From positions 152,301-216,300 of the forward strand of contig NZ_JAATVV010000002.1 of NCBI RefSeq assembly GCF_013184775.1: a stretch of DNA of 64,000 bases. Direction: 5' to 3'. The number at the start of each line of letters is the position of its first letter. Within the stretch, counting starts at the first letter, position 1. The translations under genes and the position numbers were made by a program. A model generated the notes under the pieces. That model did no database searches. It saw nothing but the letters and a program-made list of their open reading frames with translations, and was not told where the DNA came from. The stretch is from Martelella sp. HB161492. GTDB taxonomy: Bacteria; Pseudomonadota; Alphaproteobacteria; Rhizobiales; Rhizobiaceae. Shown here piece by piece: positions 7,240 to 47,615 of this stretch.

Positions 7240-8910
7240 CTAAAGCGCGGCTACGCCGTCAACAAACCACTTCTCTCGAGAGATATTTGAAAGCTCTGTG
7301 TCGTTCTTCATATATTCTGGAGATGGAAGAAGACCTTTCGGCAGCGAATTCTCAAATAATTCCTTTGCACGCGCAATCTGCTGCGACGCGCTGAGAAAGC
7401 AAAGGTAGTTATAAACGAGCTTGTCATCTAGCTTTCTTAGACGCTCCCAGATTTCCTCCACATCGCTAACTGTCTTTTTGTCCGCACCAACCTTCGCAGC
7501 AATCGCTGAATAAACAGCCAAAACATTATAATGTATCAGTGCGTTTTCTGATTGGATCCCGTTATCTTCATAAAAAGAAATCGCTTCCATTAGTAATGAA
7601 AAATCACCTTCAATATTGTAACGTAACGATAGACATATTATTTTGTTTTTTATATTTTCTGAAATTGGCCGAATCCTTACAGATTCCTCAATGTAGAAAT
7701 CCATTTTATCGAGTATATTCACCTTCTCTCGAATTGAAAGTGTTTCCCGATTTTCCAATATATTACACCAAAGATTATGACTTTCCTCAGCCAGAGCCCA
7801 AGAATACAATTTTTTGTGCAGATTTGAGTTTGTAATAGCTGCATTGCATTTGGGAGTGGCGGCTAATTTTATTGCGCCTTTGAAGTCTAAATTTATGATA
7901 TGATTCTCGAATACCTGGAGCTCCTCATTAAAAGTAGCACCGCCCCCAAAGCTGCCGTTGAGCCTCTCCTTCACGAAATCCTTCAAATCAACCTCTGTTT
8001 GAACACCGGAAGATCGAAAGCTTGCCAAATTGTTGACCAACCGCATCGAGAATTTAGGTGGGTCCGCCAACATTATCGGAGGCCAACAACCTAGCTCTTT
8101 GCAAAGCTCTACCATAAACGCATCAAATTTGAGGCTTGCCAAAAAGTGTGTCTGTTTACGCTTAAATAGATTTCTTAAATGTTGGGGCACCGATAATTCT
8201 GTAGATAGCCAAAACAATGAGTTTCGACCTTTTTGATTTTTTTCAAAGAGTTTCAAAAGCTCATCTGCAACTCCGCTATATCCGATAATTAATAATGGAC
8301 TTCTATTCAGCGAATCCTTGATGAGCGGATCTAGCCGCTTTAGGTGAGGAGCCGTTTCACTCTTGGTATGCCGATGTATATATCCATAACTCTGGCCGTG
8401 CAGGTGAATAATGGATGGTAAGACTATTCGTGAGAGATCAGCGTGCGGTGACGTTGAAAAATCGTAAATGCTGGGATGGAAATCAACCAGAGAGCATGCT
8501 TTCTGAAGCTGAGTATCAAAATTCAGAGATAACGCACATTCAATGTAGCCCTCTTCCATTAGCCGGGCCAAGGCTACATATCCCCAACCAATCGGCTTGT
8601 TCGAGACGGATTCCAAAATCAGATCCCGCCGCGTATTCTCGGGAATGGATTCCATCACATCAGGGTATGCATCAAAGCGACTAGTATCTATTGACTTCAC
8701 TGCCGCTGGAAACCGTTTGGCGATTATGTCTACCAACTGAGCAGCTGATGGGATGCCCCCTGACATCGAACAGCCGGCACCAATGAGTATTCTTCCCCCA
8801 ATTCCCTTTTCTCTGCTCGCCCTAAGTTGCTCACTTACGACCGCAACGGCTCTATTGTAATAGGTTTTCAATTTCCTTCTCCGATGGAAATGATATCTTT
8901 TACTTTGCAT
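7240..8910 (-). CDS. SIR2-family NADase-like protein with helical C-terminal region
   Basis: A 556-residue protein. SIR2 landmarks occur in order: GAGCSMSGGIPSA (44-56), LNFDTQLQ (129-136), IHLHGQ (168-173, with catalytic-type H171) and LLIIGYSG (206-213). The remaining 300 residues are helix-rich and contain no named domain I can place; they could be a sensor or TPR-like region. Bacterial SIR2 proteins such as DSR-type and Thoeris/Argonaute-associated ones cleave NAD upon phage infection. No second component is adjacent, so a stand-alone DSR-like effector is likeliest (inference). The gene is markedly richer in A+T than the phage genes to its right, a sign of separate acquisition. Confidence 0.82.
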   Translation of the reverse strand: MQSKRYHFHRRRKLKTYYNRAVAVVSEQLRASREKGIGGRILIGAGCSMSGGIPSAAQLVDIIAKRFPAAVKSIDTSRFDAYPDVMESIPENTRRDLILESVSNKPIGWGYVALARLMEEGYIECALSLNFDTQLQKACSLVDFHPSIYDFSTSPHADLSRIVLPSIIHLHGQSYGYIHRHTKSETAPHLKRLDPLIKDSLNRSPLLIIGYSGVADELLKLFEKNQKGRNSLFWLSTELSVPQHLRNLFKRKQTHFLASLKFDAFMVELCKELGCWPPIMLADPPKFSMRLVNNLASFRSSGVQTEVDLKDFVKERLNGSFGGGATFNEELQVFENHIINLDFKGAIKLAATPKCNAAITNSNLHKKLYSWALAEESHNLWCNILENRETLSIREKVNILDKMDFYIEESVRIRPISENIKNKIICLSLRYNIEGDFSLLMEAISFYEDNGIQSENALIHYNVLAVYSAIAAKVGADKKTVSDVEEIWERLRKLDDKLVYNYLCFLSASQQIARAKELFENSLPKGLLPSPEYMKNDTELSNISREKWFVDGVAAL

Positions 8911-31585: not shown

Positions 31586-33540
31586 CGGTTTTCTTTTTTC
31601 GGCTTTGCGGCGGCGGCCGGTTCTGGCTGCGCCTTGTTTTCTATTTTCGGTGCAGCGGCAACCTGTACAGGCGCCGGTGAAAAAAGATCGGCAACGGGCG
31701 CACCTTCAAGCTTACGCCTCAAGGCAGCCCAGTCAGCCGGAGAGTTGGACGACAGGCCCATATGTTCTGCCATGGCCATTGCGTAGATCCGGCAATCAAG
31801 CCAGTGATTGTCCGCACGCCGTGGCTTCCATTCCTCGTAGAGCTTGCCGCGTCTGATCTCATGGACGAAATATTCGCCCGTGATCTGCTGGAAATATTCT
31901 TCGCCGAGTTCCGTGTGGAAATGGCAGTAACCAGGCGGGTCGCATGGCTCACCGGCAGATAGTCCGGGCTTGTGAAGGTTTCCGTAGAACTCGCCCTTCA
32001 GTGACCATGTTCCAACCGGCCACGACATGGTCGAGCCAAAGCGCTTGCGTTTGCCCCGCCTTGTGACGGATTTGCGTTGCGGCTGCGATATCGCCGGAAT
32101 GCCACGGCCGCCAACACCCTTCACCGCATAGGTATCGGCATGTCTGCGACACCATTCCAGAACTGCATTGGTGTTGAAACCGGAGTCGACGGCGAAGGCA
32201 TCGAAGCGGCGAAGAACCCCGTTCGCATCGGGAAATTCCATGTACAGGAACTTCTCAAGTTCAAGCCATGCGCCGGCACTCGGATTATCTGTTGCCCCCT
32301 TGAAGTAGAGAGCCTCGACACACCAGCTCTGCCGATCTTCTGAAAAGGCAACGGCCTCGGCATAGATGCCGTGCCCCTGCACGTCGGCAGCACCAGTAAA
32401 GACAAGCCCACCGGCCGGGATGGTCGCTTTCGGATACCCCTCGCGGCGCTCCATGAGCCGCACGTGGTCGGGCGCATTTCCCTTCATCAGGTAAGGCAGC
32501 GCCAGCACCAGATTGCTGTAGTCCTTCGCGCCAGTCTCGCCCTTGCCTTCAGAACTCAGCTTGTCCTCAGCGATGGCACCGTATGACATCATCAGCGACA
32601 TGAAAGCATCGACATGAAAGCCCGGATGCCGGTCCGGTTCCGTGAAAGTCGGAATATAGCGCCCCTGCTTTACCGCGATGACGCGTTCTGATTCTGAAAT
32701 CTCATGCGTGCAGCTGATGCAGCGCATGCGCGATTTATGCGGATGCTCCCGGTCAATGATCAGGTTGACATCCTGTTGAACCTGCTCCGTTCCGCACTCA
32801 GGACAGCGGATATACCAGAACCGTTGATCTGATCGCCGGAACGAGCGGTCAATACGGCAGTGCCCCGGTCCGTCTCCAAGCTCATCGCCGCTGTCAAGTT
32901 CTGGCGTTGATAGCTCAAGGATCTTGTAGTTCTTCATCCGCCGGAAAGCGGTGAAGCGGCCGAAGAACAGCGTTTCCGGGTCTGAACCATCCGGGTAAAG
33001 CTCCCATTTTGAGAGCTCATCCTTGACACCATAACGGCATGTCTTGCCGGAAAGATCCTTTTTGGTGTTGGCATTCCCGAGATAGATATAGGTCTCTGTG
33101 CCAATCTTTTTGGTGTAGGTCGAAGAGTTCGCCAGATCGACAATGCGTTTTTCTGTCTTGCGCTGCCAGGCCTCAATCATCGGGTTGAACTTGCCGGTGT
33201 TCAGATCCTGCAGGAGGTCTATGCCTGGCGCTGCATAAAGCGCGTTGTCAGGGCACATCTCAGCGAGATACAGCATCCATGACATGGCAAGGATGGAAAC
33301 GCCCGTCTGCTGCCCCTTGCGCACAGTTACCAGATTGCACGGGTGTTCCTGACTAAGGCATTCGGCAATCTCAACCAGATAGGGCGCATCTGCTGCGGAC
33401 CACATATCTCCCTTTTTGTTGCCATCCACCAGGACGATGTTTTTCCCGATCCACTCATGAAACGAGACAGGCGGAATGGGCCTGATCGCTTCGGCGAGGT
33501 TCGAATAGACCAGCCGAAACGCGCTCGGATGCGCATTCAT
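31564..33540 (-). CDS. terL: Terminase large subunit (lambda GpA family)
   Basis: A 658-residue protein. Motifs in order: FHEWIGKNIVLVDGNKKGD, the variant Walker A VRKGQQTGVS, Walker-B-like YGVKDELSKW, a zinc-ribbon-like CPEC...CISC, and the nuclease-region AVDSGFNTNAV. All are typical of the GpA family, which cuts at cos and drives packaging. The C-terminus is short, basic and low in complexity. Confidence 0.94.
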   Translation of the reverse strand: MNAHPSAFRLVYSNLAEAIRPIPPVSFHEWIGKNIVLVDGNKKGDMWSAADAPYLVEIAECLSQEHPCNLVTVRKGQQTGVSILAMSWMLYLAEMCPDNALYAAPGIDLLQDLNTGKFNPMIEAWQRKTEKRIVDLANSSTYTKKIGTETYIYLGNANTKKDLSGKTCRYGVKDELSKWELYPDGSDPETLFFGRFTAFRRMKNYKILELSTPELDSGDELGDGPGHCRIDRSFRRSDQRFWYIRCPECGTEQVQQDVNLIIDREHPHKSRMRCISCTHEISESERVIAVKQGRYIPTFTEPDRHPGFHVDAFMSLMMSYGAIAEDKLSSEGKGETGAKDYSNLVLALPYLMKGNAPDHVRLMERREGYPKATIPAGGLVFTGAADVQGHGIYAEAVAFSEDRQSWCVEALYFKGATDNPSAGAWLELEKFLYMEFPDANGVLRRFDAFAVDSGFNTNAVLEWCRRHADTYAVKGVGGRGIPAISQPQRKSVTRRGKRKRFGSTMSWPVGTWSLKGEFYGNLHKPGLSAGEPCDPPGYCHFHTELGEEYFQQITGEYFVHEIRRGKLYEEWKPRRADNHWLDCRIYAMAMAEHMGLSSNSPADWAALRRKLEGAPVADLFSPAPVQVAAAPKIENKAQPEPAAAAKPKKENRWRKRKV

Positions 33541-34154
33541 CCCTCATCTTCCTCAAACATCGGATCTTCGGCCGGCGCTGCCTCTGCCAGTTTTCCAAGG
33601 CGATCAGCGATACTGTTGCCGAATTCATCGGCGATCTTGCGCAACGCGATACGCGCACCATGTGCCCCTTCCTTGGAAACCGCGATCGCAACATCATCCG
33701 CCCGGTTCTGCAGCTTCCGCAGTATCTGCTGAATGTCGCTACCGGCCTGCCGGATCGCCTCGCCCATCAGGTCAGCCCGAACAAGCTGGCCGATTGCTTC
33801 CTGATGGCGGATCTTCTCGCGCCCGACCTTCAGCCATTCGGACTGGCGCCGTGCTTCCTCGAAACTGTCTTTGACGCGAAGCCCGCCTTCAGCGGCACCA
33901 CTGTCCGCAACGGGTTCTTCCGCAAGGGTGCGGATCGGGGCTTTGGTCTTTGCCGGGTTCGAATGACGCGAACGGAATTCGTCGTAGTGGGCGAGCGACA
34001 CCCGCATCACCCGTCCCTGCCCGTCGCGCTCGATCGGTGTGTCAGGCTTGGCCTCAGCCAACTTTTTGACGGCCTTTGAAACCGCCATCTTCGACACGCC
34101 ATCACGTTCAGCGATCGCGGCGATCGTCCACATGATCAGCGGTGTGTCGTTCAC
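33537..34154 (-). CDS. Terminase small subunit-like protein (Nu1-type HTH)
   Basis: A 205-residue protein. An N-terminal helix-turn-helix (IAAIAERDGVSKMAVSKAVKKL, about 11-32) and a long helical middle as in Nu1/terS proteins; it overlaps terL by 4 bp. The start is GTG at 34154 with AGAGGG upstream. Iterated TAAACC motifs lie immediately upstream and may be its binding site. Confidence 0.8.
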   Translation of the reverse strand: MNDTPLIMWTIAAIAERDGVSKMAVSKAVKKLAEAKPDTPIERDGQGRVMRVSLAHYDEFRSRHSNPAKTKAPIRTLAEEPVADSGAAEGGLRVKDSFEEARRQSEWLKVGREKIRHQEAIGQLVRADLMGEAIRQAGSDIQQILRKLQNRADDVAIAVSKEGAHGARIALRKIADEFGNSIADRLGKLAEAAPAEDPMFEEDEG

Positions 34155-35184: not shown

Positions 35185-35261
<77 letters not shown>

Positions 35262-35432: not shown

Positions 35433-36071
35433 TCACACCTTCTCAATGAAAGCAAGTGGAATTGGAATGTCGACCTTTCCGGCGAACATCGTGGCCTTGA
35501 TCGACGCAACCATTTTTCGCTTGTTTACCGTCCGAACGAATGCCCGAATTCCAGCGAATGGCCCCTGTATGATCTCGACAAAGTCACCCGCAACGATCGA
35601 GCATGTTTCATGACCTAATTGTTCATCAATGTCCCGTAACACCATGAACCTACTGACCGTTTCTTCAGAAACGACATATGGCGCTTCAGCTGCAGTGTGA
35701 AGAACATCGATCACACCGCTGACCAGCTTCAGTCCTGCAAAGGAAGCTGCTCCGATGACACATTTCACCATCACATAGCCGGGCATGAGCGGTTTCATCC
35801 GGACGATCTTTTTATGGGTGAGACTGTGGATAACGGTTGTTTTCATCATCGGCATGAAGCTTTCAACGTCCGAATCGGCGAGAGACTGGACAACAGAAGC
35901 AGCTTTGCGACCATCCACCGACAGCACGATCCAGCGCGCCAGCTCCGGCTTGTCCTGCCAGTGACGGCGCGCGGCTGCATCGATGAAATGCGCTTCCATG
36001 CGCCGCATATGCGCAATCTTTTCGAGCTTCAGAAGCCCCGCACCGCTCACCTTGCCGTCAAACTGTCGCAT
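35433..36071 (-). CDS. NusG/RfaH-like transcription elongation factor, phage-encoded
   Basis: A 212-residue protein from the ATG at 36071 (GAGGCGG upstream). An N-terminal extension of about 40 residues precedes an NGN-like domain (RWIVLSVDGRKAASVVQSL...FMPMM, about 46-125, with PLMPGYVMVKC as in NusG PLFPGYVFV). A KOW-like C-terminal domain follows (GDFVEIIQGPFAGIRAFVRTV, 162-182). NusG paralogues such as RfaH recruit to specific operons and let polymerase read through terminators. Located at the end of the early operon and immediately before the late leader, it probably controls late transcription. Overlaps rep by 14 bp. Confidence 0.85.
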   Translation of the reverse strand: MRQFDGKVSGAGLLKLEKIAHMRRMEAHFIDAAARRHWQDKPELARWIVLSVDGRKAASVVQSLADSDVESFMPMMKTTVIHSLTHKKIVRMKPLMPGYVMVKCVIGAASFAGLKLVSGVIDVLHTAAEAPYVVSEETVSRFMVLRDIDEQLGHETCSIVAGDFVEIIQGPFAGIRAFVRTVNKRKMVASIKATMFAGKVDIPIPLAFIEKV

Positions 36072-37407
36072 CAGCATCCGCCTCTCCATCGTTGATGATT
36101 GACCGCGCTGCCCGCGCGAAATCGTCCAGATCATCCGGCCCGCCCGCCGGGAAATAGACCACGCTCATGCTTCCCGGATCCGGCACAAAGGCAAACCCGT
36201 TCTCCGCATGCCAGGCTTCCCACCGCGCCCACATGTCGGAATGCACCGGCACAGGCTCCATCAGCGGCTTGAGCGCCTGCAGCTCTGTCGGAACGGCGAT
36301 TGACTGACGCCCGCGCGCATCCGCATCGAGCTTGTGGACGAGCGGATAGCCTTCAGTCGGTATCCGCCGCGCCCGTTCCTGCGCCTCGAAATCATCGGGG
36401 AAAATCAGCGTGCCATCAGCCCCGACAGACAGGTTTCGCTCTTGAAGGAATGCCAGCGCCTTTCGCTCGCCCATGCGCTTGGCGATCGCATAGCGACCCT
36501 GCATGGACCGGTGAATGTCATCCCCCAGTTCGACTTCGACAGGGCCATCGAGCAACGCCAGCATGCGCCGTGCCGCCCAGATCGGGCCGAATGGTGCCTG
36601 CCGTGCCGTCTCCACCGTGGTGGCCGCTTGCGATGATCGTTCAACCAGCCTTGGCGCCGATGCCATCACATCGAGGAACTTCTTTTCCCGAAGATAAACG
36701 CCGATCGCCACGGGCTTCGGCTCGCCCTTGTTCGGGCCACGTTCGACCTTTGGGCAGATCCTGAGATAGGGTTCCCGGCAGTCTTCTGCCTGCCGGCGCT
36801 CTTCCGCTGTCAGCGCCTTGAACTGTTTCAAGCCCCAACCACTGGACGAACTGAAAGCACCCGGCCACGGCTTCCAGCCGATCGCGGTGTCGCCCATCTC
36901 AAGCCGCTTGAACCGCTTTTCGAGCGCTTTCGGTGTTTCGTTCGGATCATCTTCAAAATCCTCGCGCGCACCCTCTCTCTCAGTTACTGGTTCATTTACT
37001 GGTTCCCTTACAGGGTTACTGTCCAAATTTTGGACACGGCCAGCCTCGTTTTTTGGACACGGCGAGGCCTCATTTTTGGACACGGTTTCCGCCCCTTCGC
37101 CGTGTCCAGAATTTGCACATGGTGAACGGGCAAAATCGGCTTCAAAAGCAAGACGATATCGCGTGCGCTCTTGCTGCCCGTTGCCACGCCGGCGAACCTC
37201 GCGCGCAATCAGTCCGCGCGCTTCCAGGTCAGCCAGATGATTGTTAAGCGATGACCGCGACATTTCGCAGTCTTCAGCAAGGGTGTCCTGTGAAGGGAAG
37301 CACCCGAAATCGCTGTTATAGCGGTCACACAGATACCAGAGCACGATTTTCGTGGCCGGTTTCAAGCCGCGCTGAAGGATCGCCCAGTTGGTCGCCTGAT
37401 GGCTCAT
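36058..37407 (-). CDS. Replication-initiation-type protein with winged HTH
   Basis: A 449-residue protein. The N-terminus (LKPATKIVLWYLCDRYNSDF...PSQDTLAEDCEMSRSSLNNH, about 15-60) is the HTH_36 winged helix found in plasmid and phage Rep proteins. The middle (about 95-150) is low-complexity and is encoded by DNA containing regularly spaced iterons, the arrangement of lambda O and its origin. No helicase or primase gene is nearby, so host DnaB is presumably recruited. Start overlaps the upstream stop by 4 bp. A transcriptional-regulator role is the alternative. Confidence 0.7.
   Translation of the reverse strand: MSHQATNWAILQRGLKPATKIVLWYLCDRYNSDFGCFPSQDTLAEDCEMSRSSLNNHLADLEARGLIAREVRRRGNGQQERTRYRLAFEADFARSPCANSGHGEGAETVSKNEASPCPKNEAGRVQNLDSNPVREPVNEPVTEREGAREDFEDDPNETPKALEKRFKRLEMGDTAIGWKPWPGAFSSSSGWGLKQFKALTAEERRQAEDCREPYLRICPKVERGPNKGEPKPVAIGVYLREKKFLDVMASAPRLVERSSQAATTVETARQAPFGPIWAARRMLALLDGPVEVELGDDIHRSMQGRYAIAKRMGERKALAFLQERNLSVGADGTLIFPDDFEAQERARRIPTEGYPLVHKLDADARGRQSIAVPTELQALKPLMEPVPVHSDMWARWEAWHAENGFAFVPDPGSMSVVYFPAGGPDDLDDFARAARSIINDGEADADATV
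37021..37110. repeat. Iterons inside the rep gene: candidate phage origin
   Basis: Three direct copies of TTTTGGACACGG have their TGGACACGG cores at 37031, 37054 and 37077, exactly 23 bp apart. An inverted copy CCGTGTCCAGAA starts at 37100. Copy 1 also sits in the perfect 15-bp palindrome GTCCAAA-T-TTTGGAC (37021-37035). As 23 is not a multiple of 3, the copies are read in different codon phases, so the repetition is kept at DNA rather than protein level. Confidence 0.65.
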
Positions 37408-37574
37408 AGCGGCACGTCCCTCCTGTCGATAATCCGGCAGACTTCCTCTTCAGACAGGTCAACGACCGCAGCAATCCGATCAGTCGACATGTCGCCGCGC
37501 CGCCAAAGCTCAATCACACGCTGGCTGGCGCGGGCAGACCGTGCCGTTTCCTGCCGGTTCATGCCTTCATTCAT
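37404..37574 (-). CDS. Small helix-turn-helix protein
   Basis: 56 residues from the ATG at 37574 (37577 or 37562 also possible). ASQRVIELWRRGDMSTDRIAAVVDLSEEEVCRIIDRR is a single HTH of the kind also repeated in the GcrA-like protein upstream. Both ends overlap neighbours, so it is translationally coupled. Probably a small DNA-binding regulator. Confidence 0.6.
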   Translation of the reverse strand: MNEGMNRQETARSARASQRVIELWRRGDMSTDRIAAVVDLSEEEVCRIIDRRDVPL

Positions 37575-38253
37575 CATGCCCGCCCCCGAAGAGCTCAGAT
37601 TGCCGGGCATCTTTCCGATCGAGCATGCGAATAGCTGTTTCGCCGACCCATGCTTTGTCCCACACAAACCAACCGTGGTTTGTCGGCGGCGATCCCTGCC
37701 CTGTGAAATCAATCTTCCAGCGCATCAGATAAGCGCATGCGGGTGGATACTTTTCCCACAAGGTCGCCATGCCCGCAGCCCCCGGCCAGCTCCACGGCAA
37801 CAGAAGCGCCATGTACTCAATCTCGAGCACTTCCAATGCGTGATAGATCCACCGCGCACGGCCATCACGCCAGTTGCATTCCTGAAAAGGTGGATTAGTG
37901 ACGATCGCACGGCACAGCCGGTCATGCGGCGTAAAGTCGTAGAAATCGCGGATCACCGCATCGCAGCCACGGTCAACGAGATCTGACCGGAACACGTTTA
38001 GCCCGACCGTTTCCATTTCTCGCGCCATTGCCCCGTCACCGGCTGCCGGTTCCCATATCGTGGCAAAGTCTCGCAGCCGCCGTTGTTCAGCATGCAGAAA
38101 TGCCCGCGTCGGTTCCGGTGGTGTCGGGTAGAAATCATCCTTTTCGCGGGCTCGGGCTTCCGTTTCGGCTATCTCGCCATCGATCAGGTCAAGGACTGGC
38201 TTGGCAGTCTTTCCCATGGCGCGGAACAATCCGCGTGCTGAAGTCGCGCTCAT
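37567..38253 (-). CDS. N6-adenine DNA methyltransferase (Dam-like)
   Basis: A 228-residue protein. DFYPTPPEPTRAFL (40-53), SAM-binding motif I WEPAAGDGAMA (67-77), and catalytic motif NPPF (120-123) identify a phage adenine methyltransferase. A region WFVWDKAW near 190 resembles the family end. Target sequence unknown. It overlaps the GcrA-like gene by 4 bp. In Caulobacter-type bacteria GcrA acts at adenine-methylated promoters, so the pairing is suggestive. Confidence 0.85.
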   Translation of the reverse strand: MSATSARGLFRAMGKTAKPVLDLIDGEIAETEARAREKDDFYPTPPEPTRAFLHAEQRRLRDFATIWEPAAGDGAMAREMETVGLNVFRSDLVDRGCDAVIRDFYDFTPHDRLCRAIVTNPPFQECNWRDGRARWIYHALEVLEIEYMALLLPWSWPGAAGMATLWEKYPPACAYLMRWKIDFTGQGSPPTNHGWFVWDKAWVGETAIRMLDRKDARQSELFGGGHDE

Positions 38254-39017
38254 GCCGCCACCGCCATTTCACCGCGCGGGCGATAGGCAAGCTTCATGTG
38301 GGCCGTGCAATATGACCTTCCTTCAGCAACACACAGTCCGCAACAAGGCATATCCGGCCCGTTCGGCTCATCGATATCCGTCAGCGGAAAATGGCACTGG
38401 TCATGGTCGAGATCGCGGAACAGCACCGGCTCAGCACCATTGATCGCCCTGCCCTTATGGCAGCCGGTGCGATCCAGCTTCATCACGTCCGCGCCATTGT
38501 CCTGCGCATCGCTTCCGGCCTGCGCCTTCAGCAATTCAACGCGTGCATTCTTGCCACCGCGCGGCAGAAAGCGTTCGCGATGGCGTTCGGTGAAGCCGCA
38601 GACCTTCCCCCGCGAAATGCCGAGCTGATGCGCAATGGCGTTGATGGTCAGCCCATCATCCCAAAGCTTTGCCGCAGCTTCGACCAGCGCGGTCTGATCT
38701 TCCGGCGGGCGCAGCGGAAAGGCATCGCGGTTGCCATCCATGAAATTCGCCATCCGCGCATAGCCAACACCGAAATGCGCAGCCATGGCGCTGATGCTGG
38801 CGCCATCGGCCCACATGGCCCGCGCCTCATCCATCCGCGCCGTGGGCACAGCCGGTTCAATACCGGCATCGCCAATACCCATCCTGCTACGATTTCGGGA
38901 TACGAGCCCGGCAATGGCGTTTTTCGGCACACCGAAAAATGCCCCGATTTCCGCCTGGCTTTTGCCGAGCCGGATCATCCCGCCGACCAGGTCGATTTTC
39001 TCATCAGTCCAGATCAT
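38250..39017 (-). CDS. GcrA-like regulator with three tandem HTH units
   Basis: A 255-residue protein from the ATG at 39017 (or 39020). Residues 3-45 (WTDEKIDLVGGMIRLGKSQA, EIGAFFGVPKNAIAGLVSRN) match the GcrA N-terminal HTH. Two more HTH-like units follow at 62-102 and 111-152, each ending in an NR/HR-x-x-F/M pattern. The C-terminus has the GcrA Cys/His cluster (C208, C225, C226, C229, C237, H240: CHFP...CCGLCVAEGRSYCTAH). Host GcrA, about 170 residues, has one HTH and binds sigma-70. This longer form may bind DNA more specifically while keeping the polymerase contact; inferred. Confidence 0.82.
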   Translation of the reverse strand: MIWTDEKIDLVGGMIRLGKSQAEIGAFFGVPKNAIAGLVSRNRSRMGIGDAGIEPAVPTARMDEARAMWADGASISAMAAHFGVGYARMANFMDGNRDAFPLRPPEDQTALVEAAAKLWDDGLTINAIAHQLGISRGKVCGFTERHRERFLPRGGKNARVELLKAQAGSDAQDNGADVMKLDRTGCHKGRAINGAEPVLFRDLDHDQCHFPLTDIDEPNGPDMPCCGLCVAEGRSYCTAHMKLAYRPRGEMAVAA

Positions 39018-39378
39018 CATGCCCCACCCCCTCAAAGTCGAAGCAGGACTGCATGCCAGCAGCGGCAAGATAGCTGTCAAATTCCATCTCGCCTTCACGC
39101 CACGATGCACCGCCGTCTTCCCGCAGCTTCCGTAGGCGGTTAATCATTTTCGGGTTCAGCCCACGCGCCTTGATTTCATGGCCAACTTGCGTCTTGAGCT
39201 CACGGATTTCCTTCCCTTCCTCATCCAACCGATCGAGCCGGTCACAAAACTCAAGGATTTCTTTGCCGATAAGGCTGTTTCCGGACTCGGATACAACGGT
39301 CGTTTTGGTCTTCTTGCTCTTCGCCGTCTTCGCCGCAGGTTTGCCATTCACGGCCATGGGGTTGAAATCATCAGCCAT
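39004..39378 (-). CDS. GapR-like (DUF2312) nucleoid-associated protein
   Basis: A 124-residue protein. Residues about 38-108 (GKEILEFCDRLDRLDEEGKE, LKTQVGHEIKARGLNPKMI, RLRKLREDGG, YLAAAGM) follow the DUF2312/GapR pattern. A Lys-rich leader of about 30 residues precedes it. Host GapR clamps overtwisted DNA and helps replication. A phage copy could act on phage replication or the host nucleoid. Overlaps the GcrA-like gene by 14 bp and the upstream gene by 8 bp. Confidence 0.82.
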   Translation of the reverse strand: MADDFNPMAVNGKPAAKTAKSKKTKTTVVSESGNSLIGKEILEFCDRLDRLDEEGKEIRELKTQVGHEIKARGLNPKMINRLRKLREDGGASWREGEMEFDSYLAAAGMQSCFDFEGVGHDDLD

Positions 39379-39589
39379 ATCGCTGACCTCCCTTCACGGG
39401 CTTCATTCCCGGCCCGCCGTTCAAAAAGCTGGATTTCGGGCGCCAGTCGCGCGCCCCTTCGATCTGTTCGCGGATCGCATCGTCGGTGAGATCGCAGACC
39501 ATCAGCCTGTCACCCGGCCAGTCGCTGCCCTTGCAGGTGTTACAGGCAGTCACACCGCCGCCACTGATGATTTTGCAGGGCGCATTCAT
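39371..39589 (-). CDS. Small Cys-containing phage protein
   Basis: A 72-residue protein with cysteines at 5, 16, 19 and 32 (CNTCKG), possibly a zinc-binding knuckle, and DWPGDRLMVCDLTDD. Function not recognised. ATGA overlap with the upstream gene indicates coupling. Confidence 0.6.
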   Translation of the reverse strand: MNAPCKIISGGGVTACNTCKGSDWPGDRLMVCDLTDDAIREQIEGARDWRPKSSFLNGGPGMKPVKGGQRYG

Positions 39590-40089
39590 GGCTGATCATC
39601 CGCCACAACCCGCAGCTTTGCCGCGCCGCCGCCATTGGCCTTGATGGCCGCGAGACTGCGATGCACTTCCGAAATGGCCGCTTCCAGTTTCGCCAGCGGG
39701 CGTTCGCAGGTTGTCGCCTCAGTCGGCGTCACATTCCCGTCAGCAATCGAATTGCCGAAGGCATTCCCGAACTCGCCCCAATGGCGCATCATTTCAGAGA
39801 CGGAACGCAGCAGCCCGGCTTCCGCCGCCCGCTCTTCATCCGGGTCCGTCAGCCGCCGGCCATTGGCTTCGGCCAGAACGGCCGTCACCAGCGCCACACC
39901 GGCATCCTCTTCAAGCGCTACAATCGCGTTGACCGGCATCAGCTCGGCATCGGTCGGGCTGTTCCACCGCCCCACCTGCGATTTTGAAAAGTTGGTGATT
40001 TCCACCGCCCGCATAATACCGCCGCATCGGGTGATCAGATCCCGCTGGGCGGCCTTGATCCGGTGATGAAAGGCATCAGAAACAGCCAT
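39586..40089 (-). CDS. CII-like phage regulator
   Basis: A 167-residue protein from the ATG at 40089 (GGAGG seven bases upstream). HRIKAAQRDLITRCGGIMRA, VEITNFSKSQVGRWNSPTD and MPVNAIVALEEDAG follow the pattern of a family of alphaproteobacterial phage regulators with a CII/Cro-type HTH. The helical C-terminal half may mediate oligomerisation. It is the first gene of the coupled early block and lies after terminator-like hairpins. Confidence 0.65.
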   Translation of the reverse strand: MAVSDAFHHRIKAAQRDLITRCGGIMRAVEITNFSKSQVGRWNSPTDAELMPVNAIVALEEDAGVALVTAVLAEANGRRLTDPDEERAAEAGLLRSVSEMMRHWGEFGNAFGNSIADGNVTPTEATTCERPLAKLEAAISEVHRSLAAIKANGGGAAKLRVVADDQP

Positions 40090-40109
40090 TATTGCCTCCG
40101 CAAAGCGTA

Positions 40110-40158
40110 AAAAAATTCCCGCGCCGGGAAAAACCGGCGGCGTTTCCCGATGTGGGAA
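40110..40158. promoter_or_regulatory. Two TTCCC-N5-GGGAA dyads upstream of the CII-like gene
   Basis: TTCCCGCGCCGGGAA (40116-40130) and TTCCCGATGTGGGAA (40144-40158), centres 28 bp apart, share half-sites with the repressor operator region. Leftward, the first also makes a hairpin (TTCCCG-GCG-CGGGAA) followed by seven T, so it may equally be an intrinsic terminator. Both readings are possible. Confidence 0.5.
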
Positions 40159-40635
40159 GGCGCTCAAGCGCTTAAGTTCCAGGTCAGTTCAACGGGGTAA
40201 CGCGCCCCGCTTTCGCAGCTACGGAGGGTAAAGTGATCGTGGTGACCAGAGCAGTGTGTCAGGCAGAACGCGCGTTACCCGCGACAAAGGAAAAGCGCCG
40301 CGCCGGGCTGACGGGAGGAGGAACCAGCCGCGGCGCGGCCCTGCCGGTCCGCAAGGTTGAAGCGGCAGGAAGAGAACAAGAGAAATGGCGCGCCGGATGG
40401 CTCCCGATGCGGACAGGAAATCCCGTCCCAGCCACATCACCATCCGGCGATTGCTCAAGCCGAAGCGGGAGATACGCCCCGGCGAGCGAAGACGTGAAAA
40501 GCAAACGGGCACAGACAGCCGCCCCCGCACAAAACCTTCAAAGCACGCTGCGGTCGGCGAAACCCTGTGGGCGAGAAAACGAACCGTATGAACAATTTGA
40601 TAGAAACCGCATGCAACCATTGCTATCGTTAGCTC
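40159..40635. other. Non-coding, structured region with long inverted repeats
   Basis: No convincing gene. Two long dyads occur: GCCGCGCC (40297-40304) with GGCGCGGC (40332-40339), followed leftward by GCGCTTTTCCTTT, like a terminator; and CGCCGGATGG (40391-40400) with CCATCCGGCG (40440-40449), a 10-bp arm with a 39-base loop. A 68-codon basic frame at 40385-40591 (plus) lacks family resemblance. Confidence 0.5.
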
Positions 40636-41178
40636 ATGCAACTGAGCTTCGAAACAATTGCCCTGTCCGTTACCGCCATATGCTCGGCCATTGCCGCAAC
40701 TGGGACAATCTGGCAGGCAATCACCACACACCGAAGCGCCCAAAGGCAAAGGCCCTCTTTGCTGGCCGATTTCCGCCCATTCGACGGACACCCAGGCTGG
40801 GTGCATGTCAGAATATGGAAATCTGGCGAAAAGCAGCTTCCCTTTTCGCTTGCCTCTGCAAGGCTCATGAAGCCGAGGGGATCTCAGGGCTTGCGGCTTT
40901 CCGCCACTCAGGGCGAACCGCAATCTGTAAACCACCACATTCCCGCCATCGCTCCATCGCTGAAACAGGCGCAGCGCGGCGACACCCCGCTCGAACCGGT
41001 CTCCTATGCTTTCGGATACGAGGAGCTTTTCAGGTTCGAATCCCTGTTTTACCATCAGGCATTCAGGAACTCTCTGCCCCCCCTGCTGGATATCTGCGTG
41101 ACTTGGCAGTGGGCCGATCAGCCGCGCCACAACCGCAAGATTTCGGTCACCGCGAGACAAAGCAAAATGAACGACTGA
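40636..41178 (+). CDS. Hypothetical membrane-anchored protein
   Basis: A 180-residue protein. The N-terminal hydrophobic helix (FETIALSVTAICSAIAATGTIWQAI, about 5-29) followed by a charged THRSAQRQRPSL and a cytoplasmic domain is a common plan in small phage or host membrane proteins. The gene points against the surrounding leftward operon, as morons often do. No strong ribosome binding site, so the start is uncertain. Confidence 0.5.
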   Translation: MQLSFETIALSVTAICSAIAATGTIWQAITTHRSAQRQRPSLLADFRPFDGHPGWVHVRIWKSGEKQLPFSLASARLMKPRGSQGLRLSATQGEPQSVNHHIPAIAPSLKQAQRGDTPLEPVSYAFGYEELFRFESLFYHQAFRNSLPPLLDICVTWQWADQPRHNRKISVTARQSKMND

Positions 41179-41246
41179 AGACCCGCCATCCATTTCAGAA
41201 AAGTGAGTTGCTCGGCGAGTACCGGCAGCGTAGTTGCCACGTCCAT
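41118..41246 (-). CDS. Short single-helix membrane peptide
   Basis: 42 residues from the ATG at 41246 with GAGGATC at good spacing upstream. A hydrophobic helix MAGLQSFILLCLAVTEIL spans the second half. Overlaps the end of the opposing gene by 61 bp. It may be a real early-operon gene, but the evidence is limited to the Shine-Dalgarno match and the hydrophobic pattern. Confidence 0.4.
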   Translation of the reverse strand: MDVATTLPVLAEQLTFLKWMAGLQSFILLCLAVTEILRLWRG

Positions 41247-41360
41247 GGAATTGATCCTCATAATCTTCGTGTGAAAAGCTAACGGGCGCGCCGGCCCAGC
41301 GTGAAACCGGCGCACCCGCTGTCTGCCTGCGCAACGTCCCTGTATACGCAGGCGGAAGAG

Positions 41361-41405
41361 AAAAAAGGCGGCGCGCACGACGCAAGACAGGCTGCGCGCG
41401 CCGCC
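41361..41405 (-). terminator. Intrinsic terminator downstream of the Cro-like gene
   Basis: Perfect 10-bp stem GGCGGCGCGC/GCGCGCCGCC (41367-41376 with 41396-41405) followed leftward by TTTTTT. A further 7-bp dyad GCGCCGG/CCGGCGC lies at 41288-41313. They would limit leftward readthrough beyond the Cro-like gene unless antitermination occurs. Confidence 0.8.
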
Positions 41406-41456
41406 AGTTGGCTGACCCGGCTCGATAGGCCAGCGTGGGGAAGAACAAACCCGCCA

Positions 41457-41720
41457 TCACTGCACCGCCCCTTCAGGCTGCAGCAGCACCGGGCGCGGCA
41501 CATCATCCGGCCAGGGCGCATCTTCGGGCCAGTTCTCTGAGAACCACGTCACGACACGGTCATAGGTCGCGACGGTGAACGAGGTGTGCCCATCTCGAAC
41601 GCGGCGGAAGAACCTGCCATCGCCAACAGTAAGGCGACCAGTCGTGCTTTCTGCGCGTCCGGTTTCGGCCGTGTAGCGCCCGACGAGCGCCAGCATGTGA
41701 GATCGAAGCAAAGTTTCCAT
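41457..41720 (-). CDS. Cro-like small regulator
   Basis: An 87-residue protein. MLALVGRYTAETGRAESTTG, RLTVGDGRFFRRVRDGHTSF and VATYDRVVTWFSENWP follow a rhizobial family of short HTH regulators. It is divergent from the repressor and shares its operator region. A -10-like TACAAT (41740-41735) puts the transcript start only about 7 bases before the ATG at 41720, so the mRNA may be nearly leaderless, which fits the missing Shine-Dalgarno sequence. Confidence 0.65.
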   Translation of the reverse strand: METLLRSHMLALVGRYTAETGRAESTTGRLTVGDGRFFRRVRDGHTSFTVATYDRVVTWFSENWPEDAPWPDDVPRPVLLQPEGAVQ

Positions 41721-41734
41721 GCTTCAAATTTGTA

Positions 41735-41791
41735 ATTGTATTTTTCCCACTTAGCAATGGGAAATCTAGAACTCGGGAAAAAGTGGGAAAT
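41735..41791. promoter_or_regulatory. Operator region between repressor and Cro-like genes
   Basis: Half-sites TTTCCCACTT (41743-41752), ATGGGAAATC (41756-41765), CGGGAAAAAG (41774-41783) and AGTGGGAAAT (41782-41791). The first and last are exact inverted copies of each other over ten bases. They overlap the leftward promoter (TTCCCA, 17 bp, TACAAT) and the probable start of the repressor gene, so autoregulation is likely. Confidence 0.65.
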
Positions 41792-42488
41792 GACCTACAA
41801 TCTTGATATGGATTTGAAAGATATCGTCACGACCCGCCTGGCCGAACTTGGACTGGGCCCCGTTGAGGCCGCTAACCGTAGCGGCCTTAAGACTAATTTT
41901 ATTGCCGATATCATTTCCGGACGCAAAAGCAGCATCCAGTCACGCAACCTCGCCAAGCTCGCCGAAGCGCTCCACCTCGATCCGTCTGCCCTTGCTGATA
42001 GCCGTATTGTCCGCACGGACACAGCCCCGCCCGCTCAAGCCCCCGCCGCCGCGCTTCCATCGACAGAAGCACGCACCGTTCATATAGCTGGCACCGTTGC
42101 CGCGTCCTACACGCAAGGCACATCGTTTGAACCCGGAAAGCGGCTTGGATACCTGCCTTCACCGCCAGCGATGGCGCATATTTCCGGGATCTATGCGCTT
42201 TACGTTGATGGCCGCAGCATGGAGCCGCAGTTCTTTCCGGGCGACCTGATATTCGTTCACTCTATGCGCCAGCCCCGTTTTGGCGATTGCGCCGTCGTCG
42301 TCACAGATCACGGACAAGGACCACAGAGGACGCTCGGCATATTCAAATCCGAGGCAGCAGAAACTATCACCCTGTTCAAACGTGTGAGCGACAGCGACCC
42401 CGGAAAGGGCGCAGACATCACAATCCCCAAACAGTTCGTCACAGCAAAGCACAAGGTCCTCACCGTAAACGAGATGTTCGGCGGCTGA
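41790..42488 (+). CDS. Prophage repressor, HTH plus S24/LexA-type peptidase domain
   Basis: 232 residues if started at the ATG at 41790; 41808 is an alternative and neither has a clear Shine-Dalgarno. HTH at about 10-62 (LGPVEAANRSGLKTNFIADI). The C-terminal domain has YVDGRSMEPQFFPGDLIFV, with Ser143 as the expected nucleophile and a Lys near 186. This is the RecA-stimulated self-cleaving repressor plan, so SOS induction of the prophage is likely. It faces the Cro-like gene across the operators. Confidence 0.9.
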   Translation: MTYNLDMDLKDIVTTRLAELGLGPVEAANRSGLKTNFIADIISGRKSSIQSRNLAKLAEALHLDPSALADSRIVRTDTAPPAQAPAAALPSTEARTVHIAGTVAASYTQGTSFEPGKRLGYLPSPPAMAHISGIYALYVDGRSMEPQFFPGDLIFVHSMRQPRFGDCAVVVTDHGQGPQRTLGIFKSEAAETITLFKRVSDSDPGKGADITIPKQFVTAKHKVLTVNEMFGG

Positions 42489-42552
42489 AATGCTTGCCCG
42501 CGAGCACAATCAGAAATAGGCTGATTCAGCACTTCTGACGTCGGGGGATATC

Positions 42553-43446: not shown

Positions 43447-43587
43447 CGCCCGCCCACTGAACGCCATGAAAAGCAGACGAGCCGCGATAAACAACTGATT
43501 CGTCTTCTATATTAAGCTTTCTCAACCCATAAGATATTGGCCCAACCTCTGCGCCAATTTGTAGCTGCGCGACGGTGCTATTGTATA

Positions 43588-43632
43588 TTTCCCACTTTCC
43601 AATTGACACATGGGATAAATACAACTTATCTT
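43588..43632 (+). promoter_or_regulatory. Rightward early promoter with repressor half-sites
   Basis: Consensus -35 TTGACA (43603-43608), 18-bp spacer, -10-like TATCTT (43627-43632). Half-sites TTTCCCACTT (43588-43597) and ATGGGAT (43610-43616) flank the -35. The stretch TTGTAT-x-TTTCCCACTT also occurs at the repressor operator, supporting shared control. Confidence 0.6.
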
Positions 43633-45405: not shown

Positions 45406-45547
45406 AGCCCTGTTCGCTGCCGCAGCAGCTCACCCGCTCATCGCCATTCTGGCAACCGGCTTCAGCTATTGGGGCCTGCGCCTGATGCTGCGCGGCTTTC
45501 GCCAGGGCGGTGACGAACTCAATTCAAACAGGCGGCGGGAGGACTGA
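45392..45547 (+). CDS. Short membrane peptide 3
   Basis: 51 residues. AGGA upstream of the ATG. A hydrophobic first half (EALFAAAAAHPLIAILATGF) and a basic end (SNRRRED). Lies 4 bp before the methyltransferase start codon. Confidence 0.5.
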   Translation: MNPVEALFAAAAAHPLIAILATGFSYWGLRLMLRGFRQGGDELNSNRRRED

Positions 45548-45551
45548 GCCC

Positions 45552-47615
45552 ATGAAAATGATGGACTCGCTCTTTGAAGGCTTTGTTTCGCAGCGCTCCA
45601 CCCGCATGGCCGGTTTCGGCGGCAACGGCCCGCTGATCATCGACAGCTTTGCCGGTGGCGGCGGAGCTTCCACGGGCATCGAGATGGCGCTTGGCCGCTC
45701 GCCGGATATCGCCATCAACCACAATCCGGTTGCCCTTGCCATGCATGAGGCAAACCACCCGGATACGCTGCATCTGTCAGAGAACATCTATAAGGTCGAC
45801 CCACTCGACTATGTCGCCGGGCAGCATATCGGCCTGGCGTGGTTCTCACCGGATTGCAAGCACTTCTCCAAGGCCAAGGGCGGCAAGCCGGTTGAACGCA
45901 ATATCCGCGACCTCGCCCACATCATTCCGGCATGGGTCGAGCGGATCCAGAAGTCCGGCGGCCGGATCGATGTGATCGTGATGGAGAACGTCGAAGAGTT
46001 TTCGACCTGGGGCCCGCTCATCAAGACTGAAAAGGGCGACGTTCCGGACCCGGACCGCAAGGGCGAGACATTCCAGAAATGGTGCAAGACGCTGCGACGG
46101 CTCGGCGGAAAGCTGGAAACGCGCGAGCTTCGGGCCTGCGACTATGGTGCGCCGACGATCCGCAAGCGCCTGTTCGTCATCATCCGCTTTGATGGCAGGC
46201 CCATCGTCTGGCCGCAACCGACCCACGGCGCACCGGATGATGCCGATGTCTATTTCGGCCACAGGAAACCATGGCGCACCGCAGCCGAAATCATCGATTG
46301 GTCGCTGCCCTGCCCTTCGATCTTCGACACGGCCGAAGAGATCATGGATAAGCACGGCCTCCGCGCAGTCCGCCCGCTCGCAGACAACACGGAAGCCCGC
46401 ATTGCCAGAGGCATGCAGCGCTATGTGATCGAAGCGGAAACACCGTTCATGGTCAACCTCACCCATGGCGGTCGCGTGGAAAGCGCGGGCGAGCCCTTCA
46501 AGACGCTGACAGCAGCGCACCGCGGCGAAAAGGCTGCCATCGTTCCATCGGTCATGCGTTTCAATACCGGCGCGACCGGCAGCGCGATTGATGAACCATT
46601 GCCCACCATCACCGCGAACAGCTTCATCAAGCGCCCGGGCGGTGCTGCGCCGCTTGGCATCATGTCAGCATTCGTGTCCCGCCAGTTTGGCAAGTCCATC
46701 GGCCATGGGCTTGATGCTCCTGCCGCCACCGTGACGGCTGGCGTCAATAAGTCGGCACTGATCACCCCCGTCGTCACCTTTGCCCAGCATGGCGGCGCAG
46801 TGCGCCCGGCCGATGCACCGTTTCATACCATCACCGCCAGCAAGAAAGATCAGAACGCAGTCATTTCACCGCTGCTTATGAGCCTGAAGGGCGAGACACG
46901 CCGGGCAAGCACCGTATGCGCGCCGCACCCGACCATCTGCGCCGAGGGCAATCATTCCTCGCTCATCACCCCGACCCTCATTCAGACGGGCTATGGCGAA
47001 CGTCAGGGGCAAGCCCCGCGTTCGCTCGATTTCGCTGCATTCGTTGCCCAGCACAATAACGACAGCCGGCGCATTGGTGGCGTCAATCCGGGACGCAGCA
47101 TGGCACTACCGCTTTCAACAGTCACAGCCAGCGGCTCGCAGCAGGGTACCGTTGCCGCCTATTGTGCCAAATATTTCGGCACTGGCGACGGTGCCCGCTA
47201 CAGCGAACCATGCCACACGGTCACAACGAAAGACCGCTTCGGACATATTCAGGCGGCATTGGACGTTCCGCCCTTCACCGAAGCACAGGCCGAGCGTGCC
47301 CGGCAGGTTGCCGCCTTTCTGCGCAAATATGGCTTCTGGGATGAACGCGAATTCGTCACGTTGGAAATCAACGGCAACACCTATGTCATTGTCGATATAG
47401 GCATGCGCATGCTCACCCCGCGCGAGCTGTTCCGCGCCCAGGGCTTTCCCGAAGACTACCAGATTGACCGCGCTCCGGACGGAACGCTGTTCACCAAATC
47501 CGCGCAGGTTTCCGCTGTCGGCAATTCCGTCTCGCCGCCAGTGGCCGCCGCAATCATCGGCGCGAACTGCGGCCACCTGATCGCTGAACTGTTTGGTCTG
47601 GAGGCGGCTGCATGA
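45552..47615 (+). CDS. C5-cytosine DNA methyltransferase with repeat-rich target-recognition insert
   Basis: A 687-residue protein from the ATG at 45552 (GGAGGA upstream). Motif I DSFAGGGGASTGIEMAL (31-47), catalytic Cys in WFSPDCKHFS (C102), ENV (145-147), QxRxR-type APTIRKRLFVI and the C-terminal motif X. Between motifs VIII and IX is an insert of about 280 residues made of repeated units ending in P-x-x-T-(I/V/L)-T-A (KTLTAA, PTITAN, ATVTAG, HTITAS, STVTAS, HTVTTK). Phage methylation of its own DNA against restriction is likely. Overlaps the next gene by 4 bp. Confidence 0.88.
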   Translation: MKMMDSLFEGFVSQRSTRMAGFGGNGPLIIDSFAGGGGASTGIEMALGRSPDIAINHNPVALAMHEANHPDTLHLSENIYKVDPLDYVAGQHIGLAWFSPDCKHFSKAKGGKPVERNIRDLAHIIPAWVERIQKSGGRIDVIVMENVEEFSTWGPLIKTEKGDVPDPDRKGETFQKWCKTLRRLGGKLETRELRACDYGAPTIRKRLFVIIRFDGRPIVWPQPTHGAPDDADVYFGHRKPWRTAAEIIDWSLPCPSIFDTAEEIMDKHGLRAVRPLADNTEARIARGMQRYVIEAETPFMVNLTHGGRVESAGEPFKTLTAAHRGEKAAIVPSVMRFNTGATGSAIDEPLPTITANSFIKRPGGAAPLGIMSAFVSRQFGKSIGHGLDAPAATVTAGVNKSALITPVVTFAQHGGAVRPADAPFHTITASKKDQNAVISPLLMSLKGETRRASTVCAPHPTICAEGNHSSLITPTLIQTGYGERQGQAPRSLDFAAFVAQHNNDSRRIGGVNPGRSMALPLSTVTASGSQQGTVAAYCAKYFGTGDGARYSEPCHTVTTKDRFGHIQAALDVPPFTEAQAERARQVAAFLRKYGFWDEREFVTLEINGNTYVIVDIGMRMLTPRELFRAQGFPEDYQIDRAPDGTLFTKSAQVSAVGNSVSPPVAAAIIGANCGHLIAELFGLEAAA

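Follow-up and report, generated by a model that had tools for sequence, protein, structure and literature searches.

Why would a temperate phage carry counterparts of two cell-cycle factors of bacteria together with an adenine methyltransferase (MTase)? The question is raised by a prophage of Martelella sp. HB161492, which encodes a GapR-like protein, a GcrA-like protein and a probable N6-adenine MTase in one operon with its replication initiator gene, rep. The prophage lies in a stretch of 64,000 nucleotides (contig NZ_JAATVV010000002.1, positions 152,301 to 216,300 of the forward strand), which is called the window below and to which coordinates refer unless a locus is named. The explanation that we favor, at a probability of roughly 45%, is that the phage uses adapted host-type DNA-state proteins, concerned with sigma-70 cofactor activity, topology, and methylation, for its own early transcription and replication; this is suggested by sequence matches and structural models. 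The initial annotation of this DNA had proposed that the phage rewires the cell-cycle programme of its host. We found no sign of action on the host cycle, and the prophage is poor in GANTC, with none at the apparent promoters of the operon. Such rewiring may occur, but service to the phage's own early transcription and replication is more likely.

The three reading frames are present on the minus strand and overlap, as annotated initially, and their position upstream of rep is borne out, with one small helix-turn-helix (HTH) gene between the MTase gene and rep. The early genes on this strand are ordered p87, CII-like, p72, GapR, GcrA, MTase, small HTH, Rep, and NusG-like antiterminator, and those from CII to NusG form one run of overlapping genes (Table 1). 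Every junction from CII to Rep overlaps: CII/p72 by 4 bp, p72/GapR by 8 bp, GapR/GcrA by 14 bp, GcrA/MTase by 4 bp (ATGA), MTase/HTH by 8-11 bp (depending on an HTH start at 37574 or 37577), and HTH/Rep by 4 bp. Judging from gene order and family matches, the layout is like that of lambda, and the operon serves early lysogeny and replication in a temperate alphaproteobacterial phage. The operon DNA was matched in full only in its own genome when 13 genomes of the same genus were compared, and short fragments were found in two others.

The GcrA-like protein matches Pfam PF07750 above the curated cut-off (E 3.4e-19, 70.2 bits vs 26.9), in agreement with its initial family assignment. We regard it as a member of the GcrA family and not as an orthologue, because it does not reach the cut-off of the NCBIfam cell-cycle GcrA equivalog NF050816 (38.5 bits vs 280). 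Relatives of the protein are contained in PHROG 16311 (function unknown; E 5.1e-24). A domain scan placed HTH repeats at residues 1-45, 56-98, and 107-149 and a sigma-interacting domain (SID) at 194-245; the E-values of the repeats are too flattering, because these repeats were themselves among the seeds of the HTH profile. Three tri-helical units are seen in the AlphaFold model (mean pLDDT 80.4, pTM 0.37). Residues 1-44 superpose on the DNA-binding domain (DBD) of Caulobacter GcrA (5yiu; Z 7.5, rmsd 1.2, 44 residues aligned, 34% identity), which ranked first of 846 aligned chains; since such a Z (below 8) is only moderate and the scores of several other HTHs differ from it by less than 1, the sequence identity bears part of the weight. 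The fold-search alignments cover mainly residues 1-102 and barely the SID. In the SID, C208, C226, C237, and H240 are invariant in 17 aligned sequences, host GcrA included, and the solved GcrA 7ye1 was found by the window protein alone (E 3.5e-4) and by a 13-sequence profile that includes host GcrA (E 4.1e-19).

GcrA of Caulobacter crescentus is described as consisting of a DBD (residues 1-45), a linker (46-107), and a SID that binds sigma region 2 (108-173; PMC7403470). The phage protein resembles it in the N-terminal DBD fold and in a C-terminal SID with the C..C..C..H pattern, but has 255 residues, three predicted HTH repeats instead of one, a weakly modelled linker at about residues 151-190, and some changed DBD residues, K39 and H41 of Caulobacter being read as L38 and S40 in the alignment. 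By sequence and model alike, the phage GcrA-like protein has a three-HTH-plus-SID build. This build looks unusual, and appears new: among 25 phage GcrA-like proteins scanned, with host GcrA kept apart, three HTH units were detected in the window protein only, two in eight, and one in ten, and six scored for the SID only (L253, L269, L297, L304, L241, and L281; L numbers denote surveyed loci). It would widen the GcrA family from one DNA-reading unit to three. Five of the SID-only scorers, all but L297, were put to Pfam: L253, L269, and L304 exceed the GcrA cut-off, and L241 (96 aa) and L281 (63 aa) fall just under it. The latter two (L241:5573-5863 and L281:5367-5558) are short proteins, scarcely longer than a GcrA SID, encoded near phage GapR genes.

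The GapR-like protein exceeds the cut-off of PF10073 (E 5.5e-9, 35.9 bits vs 22.6), which confirms its initial DUF2312/GapR assignment; it does not reach that of the NCBIfam nucleoid-associated GapR equivalog NF052541 (21.0 bits vs 140). Solved GapR chains match it gap-free over residues 35-108 (E 2.1e-4), and its N-terminal tail, D-x-(F/Y)-(N/D)-P-M-A-V, is common to it and the GapR of L067. According to the structural account in PMC7373187, K56, K59, and K66 of helix 2 in Caulobacter GapR face the DNA backbone and R65 is structural. Caulobacter K49, K56, K59, R65, and K66 correspond to K70, K77, N80, R86, and E87 in the phage protein, with basic residues R81 and K84 near the changed N80 and E87. 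With K59 and K66 lost, DNA binding by the phage GapR is plausible but probably altered. GapR is common in phages, 255 relatives of the L067 protein being found in viral contigs. The GapR of Erythrobacter phage R34L1 has been called the first in any phage genome (PMC12185513). Members of the family (UPF0335/DUF2312) from R34L1 and from Sinorhizobium meliloti prophages (PMC12429752) are likewise phage-borne and share the GapR_DNA-bd domain with the window copy, which differs in adjoining GcrA and in having N80/E87 in place of K59/K66.

A D12/Dam family had been expected for the MTase; it has no Pfam match up to E 1 and no NCBIfam match up to E 0.1, and belongs instead to PHROG 799, "DNA methyltransferase" (E 5.5e-53). 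This match and the NPPF motif uphold its identity as an N6-adenine MTase. An EPAAGDG motif is also present, and G72, G74, N120, P121, and P122 are invariant in 27 aligned sequences. The model (mean pLDDT 83.8, pTM 0.77) shows a class I fold, and RNA and DNA N6-methyladenine (m6A) enzymes are among its close matches (1wy7, Z 14.4; METTL5, Z 14.2; M.TaqI, Z 13.4); no separate recognition domain is visible in it, because only the catalytic half of M.TaqI was matched. The relatives do include published GANTC methylases. phiLM21_p027 and phi2LM21_p21 (26.4% identity, E 2e-4, and 31.8%, respectively) were shown to methylate GANTC, the CcrM site, and lie in replication modules (PMC5537653), and the enzyme group that includes AmM-1 and Pben1 (61 and 48% identity to the window MTase) is said to target GANTC (PMC6536676). 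In our tree, the window enzyme, POI1126, AmM-1, and Pben1 form a clade of 18 sequences (support 100/100), and the tested GANTC enzymes are on the other side, together with Listeria and Streptococcus phage relatives; the tree is midpoint-rooted, and the long branch of phiLM21_p027 cannot be placed with certainty. The window enzyme shares with phiLM21_p027 and phi2LM21_p21 a homologous NPPF catalytic domain and placement in a replication module, but differs in belonging to a separate clade without tested members, which makes its GANTC specificity a matter of inference. The prophage carries a second DNA MTase at 45510-47615 (PHROG 116), which is cytosine-type (C5) by motif reading.

How often do the three genes occur together? 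We surveyed 160 loci anchored on the MTase (the best 80 of at least 553 viral relatives and the best 80 of 151 from GTDB) and 80 anchored on GapR (the best 80 of 255 viral loci). Neighbors were counted within 3 kb on the same strand, the window copy included; loci that end at contig ends undercount them, and the counts are given raw, with no P value for enrichment claimed. A SID-bearing GcrA was found near the MTase in 9 of the 160 loci (8 of 136 clusters at 95% identity), upstream of it in six and downstream in three, and GapR in 31 loci (26 of 136 clusters). In total, 39 loci had one or the other, and both were present only in the window's own copy, L070; no GcrA or GapR was found within 3 kb on the opposite strand in any of the 160 loci. 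Among the 80 GapR loci, GcrA or a SID was found in eight (L241, L242, and L244 resemble one phage) and the MTase family in three, and none had all three genes on one strand within 3 kb. In L269, L297, and L304, GapR and GcrA are 3 bp apart, and a divergently encoded NPPY protein, a weak match to the MTase profile, lies 3.6-4.1 kb off. The GcrA-linked MTases do not form one tree group, many forks being unresolved. Pairs of these genes recur, and the idea of a conserved three-gene module is rejected on the 160-locus survey. The initial annotation would have been refuted by neighbors that never co-occur; this is nearly the case for the trio, seen only in the window copy, and not for the pairs.

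The number of GcrA neighbors depends on the SID rule. A strict SID pattern recovered four loci (L070, L149, L156, and L161), and reading 20 proteins together with a wider profile gave nine. The L112 protein is SID-like by reading, with Cys in place of the last His, and fell outside the wider-profile rule, so that it was not counted. HTH-only proteins without a SID were also left uncounted, although the whole-GcrA profile matches them (L091, L092, L105, L121, L122, L129, L130, L144, and L146), and weak whole-profile matches in L116, L139, L180, L183, and L197 were not picked by the wider rule. L201 has a GcrA 4.9 kb from the MTase on the opposite strand. When Pfam was applied to seven of the eight SID loci other than the window (L100 was left out), six exceeded the GcrA cut-off and L161 stayed under it (23.1 bits); of 12 neighboring GcrAs from both surveys, nine exceeded it (L088, L090, L104, L138, L149, L156, L253, L304, and L269) and three did not (L161, L241, and L281). 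The GcrA neighbor in L057 resembles GapR by eye; it has no Pfam match and was not counted as such. Two kinds of GcrA relatives in the MTase loci are worth recording: in L156 (7672-8862), a GcrA domain is fused to a Rha phage regulatory domain and its gene overlaps that of a related MTase by 4 bp, and in L092:2927-3274, L121:12608-12886, L122:10931-11263, and L129:8345-8893 one GcrA-like HTH without a SID is accompanied by a similar tail (approximately K-V/I-T-L-P-R/A).

Matches among 50,697 phage records numbered 17 for the window GcrA, 1 for GapR, and 101 for the MTase, and GcrA was matched at E 1e-8 or better in 9 of 297 genomes of the family, its own included. Thirteen prophage stretches were compared, 10 for GcrA and 3 for GapR. 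A CII-like gene lies within 250 bp upstream of GcrA in 8 of the 10, two of them from the Martelella genome itself; in four of the eight the genes overlap by 4 bp, and in one p72 stands between them. A relative of p72 separates CII from GcrA in L065 and CII from GapR in L067 and L069, the order CII-p72-GapR being seen in two of the three GapR stretches, both in one genome. The Rep-NusG pair recurs in L063, L064, L066, L067, L069, and several GapR loci. A GcrA profile run over 397 genomes of the order matched in 25, mostly once each and apparently host GcrA, and was not used.

The host itself has the system, as had been supposed: a chromosomal GcrA (E 7e-57), a GapR (E 4.2e-34), and one RAMA-domain protein were found, RAMA being a domain that CcrM carries. 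Two further GcrA-like genes in the host genome each follow a CII-like gene. GANTC is scarce in the prophage (46 vs 210 expected from dinucleotides) and in the rest of the window too (29 vs 102). Three sites occur in 35433-41800: one each within the NusG-like gene and the GapR gene, and a third some 950 bases ahead of CII. Autoregulation of the operon by GANTC was rejected, with no site near the likely promoters. Intergenic sites at 42523 and 43497 on the repressor side offer at most a lead.

We therefore return to what the three proteins may do. In the explanation that we favor, a temperate phage would have acquired three DNA-state proteins of host type, adapted them, and put them to its own service. 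The SID of GcrA would bind sigma-70 region 2 and its HTH repeats would steer it to chosen promoters, probably those of the phage, making it a sigma-70 cofactor in early transcription. GapR would coat overtwisted DNA at phage forks begun at the rep iterons. The MTase would place m6A on phage and possibly also host DNA, perhaps at GANTC, where it would protect the DNA and might mark promoters for GcrA. This reading draws on the GcrA and GapR matches above the Pfam cut-offs, the invariant SID residues, the fit of the first HTH and of the whole protein to solved GcrA structures, the recurrent position of GcrA, and in one other genome of GapR, behind CII-like genes, the same-strand linkage of both to the MTase family, and the tested GANTC enzymes in replication modules (PMC5537653). 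Several observations weigh against it. The trio is unique among the 160 MTase loci, which weakens any claim of joint function; the experimentally tested enzymes all lie outside the clade of the window MTase, whose relatives occur in Listeria and Streptococcus phages; no GANTC is present between CI and p87 or in the 900 bases before CII; predicted GcrA sites are reported to lack asymmetry in any subset of phage genomes (PMC9437464); and two of the three DNA-facing helix-2 lysines are lost in the phage GapR. The missing GANTC at the apparent promoters makes methylation control of the operon less likely.

The three genes might instead be independent pieces of a mosaic, namely an anti-restriction MTase, a methylation-blind GcrA-like regulator, and a drifting GapR-like nucleoid protein, which share an operon as early regions collect such genes. 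This would suit the finding that, where GcrA or GapR lies near the MTase, the other is missing in 38 of 39 loci, the rarity of the MTase near GapR, the lost GapR lysines, and the additional C5 MTase of the prophage; the recurrence of GcrA-MTase neighbors in both orders, and of GapR-GcrA in several contigs, speaks against it, although raw counts are not decisive. We judge this rather unlikely, if the most serious of the competitors. A self-contained writer and reader, along the lines of the initial annotation, is unlikely in our estimation: the MTase would act like CcrM in marking GANTC, with phage GcrA as the reader of the marks and GapR as an aid to forks, and together they would override or time the host programme. 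It draws on the GANTC methylases related to the window enzyme (PMC5537653; PMC6536676), the conserved GcrA DBD, the host's own GcrA, GapR, and RAMA-domain protein, and the recurrent GcrA-MTase neighbors, and it has to face the single occurrence of the trio, the likely promoters devoid of GANTC, the clade position of the tested enzymes, the replacement of K39 and H41, and the lack of asymmetry of predicted GcrA sites in phages (PMC9437464). A bolder variant, a portable epigenetic switch, strikes us as less probable still: the MTase would write GANTC or another m6A mark, the three-HTH GcrA would read it and bring sigma-70 RNA polymerase, GapR would relieve fork stress, and hemimethylation made by replication would time phage transcription independently of host CcrM. 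Finally, phage GcrA could compete with host GcrA for sigma-70 and block its regulon, switching the host programme off. The SID is conserved and near-SID-only relatives of 96 and 63 aa exist in GapR phages (L241 and L281), but a decoy would make no use of the three predicted HTH repeats still present in the window protein, and we consider such interference very improbable.

Phage-borne members of the GcrA family have been described before in phiCbK-like phages and in Agrobacterium phage Atu_ph08, and the idea that phage GcrA alters the replicative state of the host is already in print (PMC3556154; PMC6630229; PMC9437464). In Atu_ph08, GcrA (gp5) is near a cytosine methylase (gp7). The window case differs in that the phage is temperate and its GcrA gene, flanked by those for GapR and an adenine MTase, belongs to an operon running from CII to Rep; the searched passages of PMC3556154 make no mention of GapR. 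Among the papers searched, none joined the words GapR and GcrA, and DUF2312 was mentioned along with phage in a single one, on a coral symbiont, though PMC12429752 tabulates GcrA and UPF0335 (the GapR family) together among S. meliloti prophage genes, the table not stating adjacency. Each kind of protein, GcrA, GapR, or GANTC methylase, had been reported from phages before, and the GapR-GcrA-MTase run appears new. One operon with GcrA, GapR, and a related methylase beside a replication gene, together with the recurrent pairs, makes a compact test bed for why alphaproteobacterial phages carry cell-cycle factors, and the operon could serve to test phage use of host gene control read from methylation.

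Table 1. Features of the prophage early region (coordinates in the window).
Feature	Coordinates	Strand	Remarks
GapR-like protein	39004..39378	-	124 aa; phage-type N-terminal tail and predicted GapR DNA-binding domain (residues 41-108); PF10073
GcrA-like protein	38250..39017	-	255 aa; three predicted HTH repeats and C-terminal SID; PF07750
N6-adenine methyltransferase (NPPF)	37567..38253	-	228 aa; catalytic domain only; PHROG 799
p72, small protein between CII and GapR	39371..39589	-	no Pfam, PHROG, or NCBIfam match
CII-like regulator	39586..40089	-	PHROG 101, E 6.9e-17; ATG start at 40089, preceded by GGAGG; frame open as far as 40167
Small HTH protein	37404..37577	-	likely start 37577 or 37574; HTH matches weak, under cut-off
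Rep, phage replication initiator	36058..37407	-	PHROG 270 "replication initiation protein", E 1e-43; PHROG 345 "O-like", E 1.1e-22
NusG/UpxY/LoaP-like antiterminator after Rep	35433..36134	-	PF02357, E 1.4e-11; PHROG 6386, E 1.4e-31; NCBIfam matches all under cut-off
p87, small gene divergent from CI, Cro position	41457..41720	-	PHROG 7669, E 9e-23 (function unknown)
CI-like S24 repressor	41736..42488	+	PF00717, E 2e-8; PHROG 4 "transcriptional repressor", E 1.1e-14
tRNA-Met gene	35185-35261		between early operon and packaging genes
Iterons, putative phage origin	37028..37111		inside rep; three direct TTTTGGACACGG(C/T) copies spaced 23 bp and one inverted
Operator-like stretches, possible CI operators	41735-41792 and 43580-43619		at CI gene start and upstream of frame near 43624, respectively; TTTCCCACTT with inverted partners

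The prophage is about 44.8 kb long and is the same as an IMG/VR contig of 44,783 bp, which by arithmetic from the contig coordinates corresponds to 5353-50135; the host genome is 5.28 Mb in 52 contigs. Downstream of the NusG-like antiterminator, the tRNA-Met gene and a tail completion or Neck1 protein are followed by frames for the small and large terminases, the frame at 33537-34154 being taken for the small one. We regard the iterons as a putative origin because four copies with 0-1 mismatch lie within 84 bp; when up to three mismatches are allowed, the window shows no excess of the motif over shuffles (22 vs 19.6). The same applies to the CI-operator-like motif when mismatches are allowed (14 vs 13.5). 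Repeats were also considered as GcrA operators and rejected: only the CI-operator-like copies (41735 and 43580) and the rep iterons stood out, and neither exceeds shuffles with mismatches.

Possible defence genes occur in and near the prophage. A prophage gene at 7240-8910 has a SIR2-like part (PADLOC Aga_SIR2 models, E 2.4e-15; Pfam SIR2_2 under cut-off) and may be anti-phage defence cargo. Just outside the prophage, an AAA ATPase (329-2353; AAA_21, with weak AriA/PtuA matches) and a TIR-domain protein (2517-3473) are further candidates.

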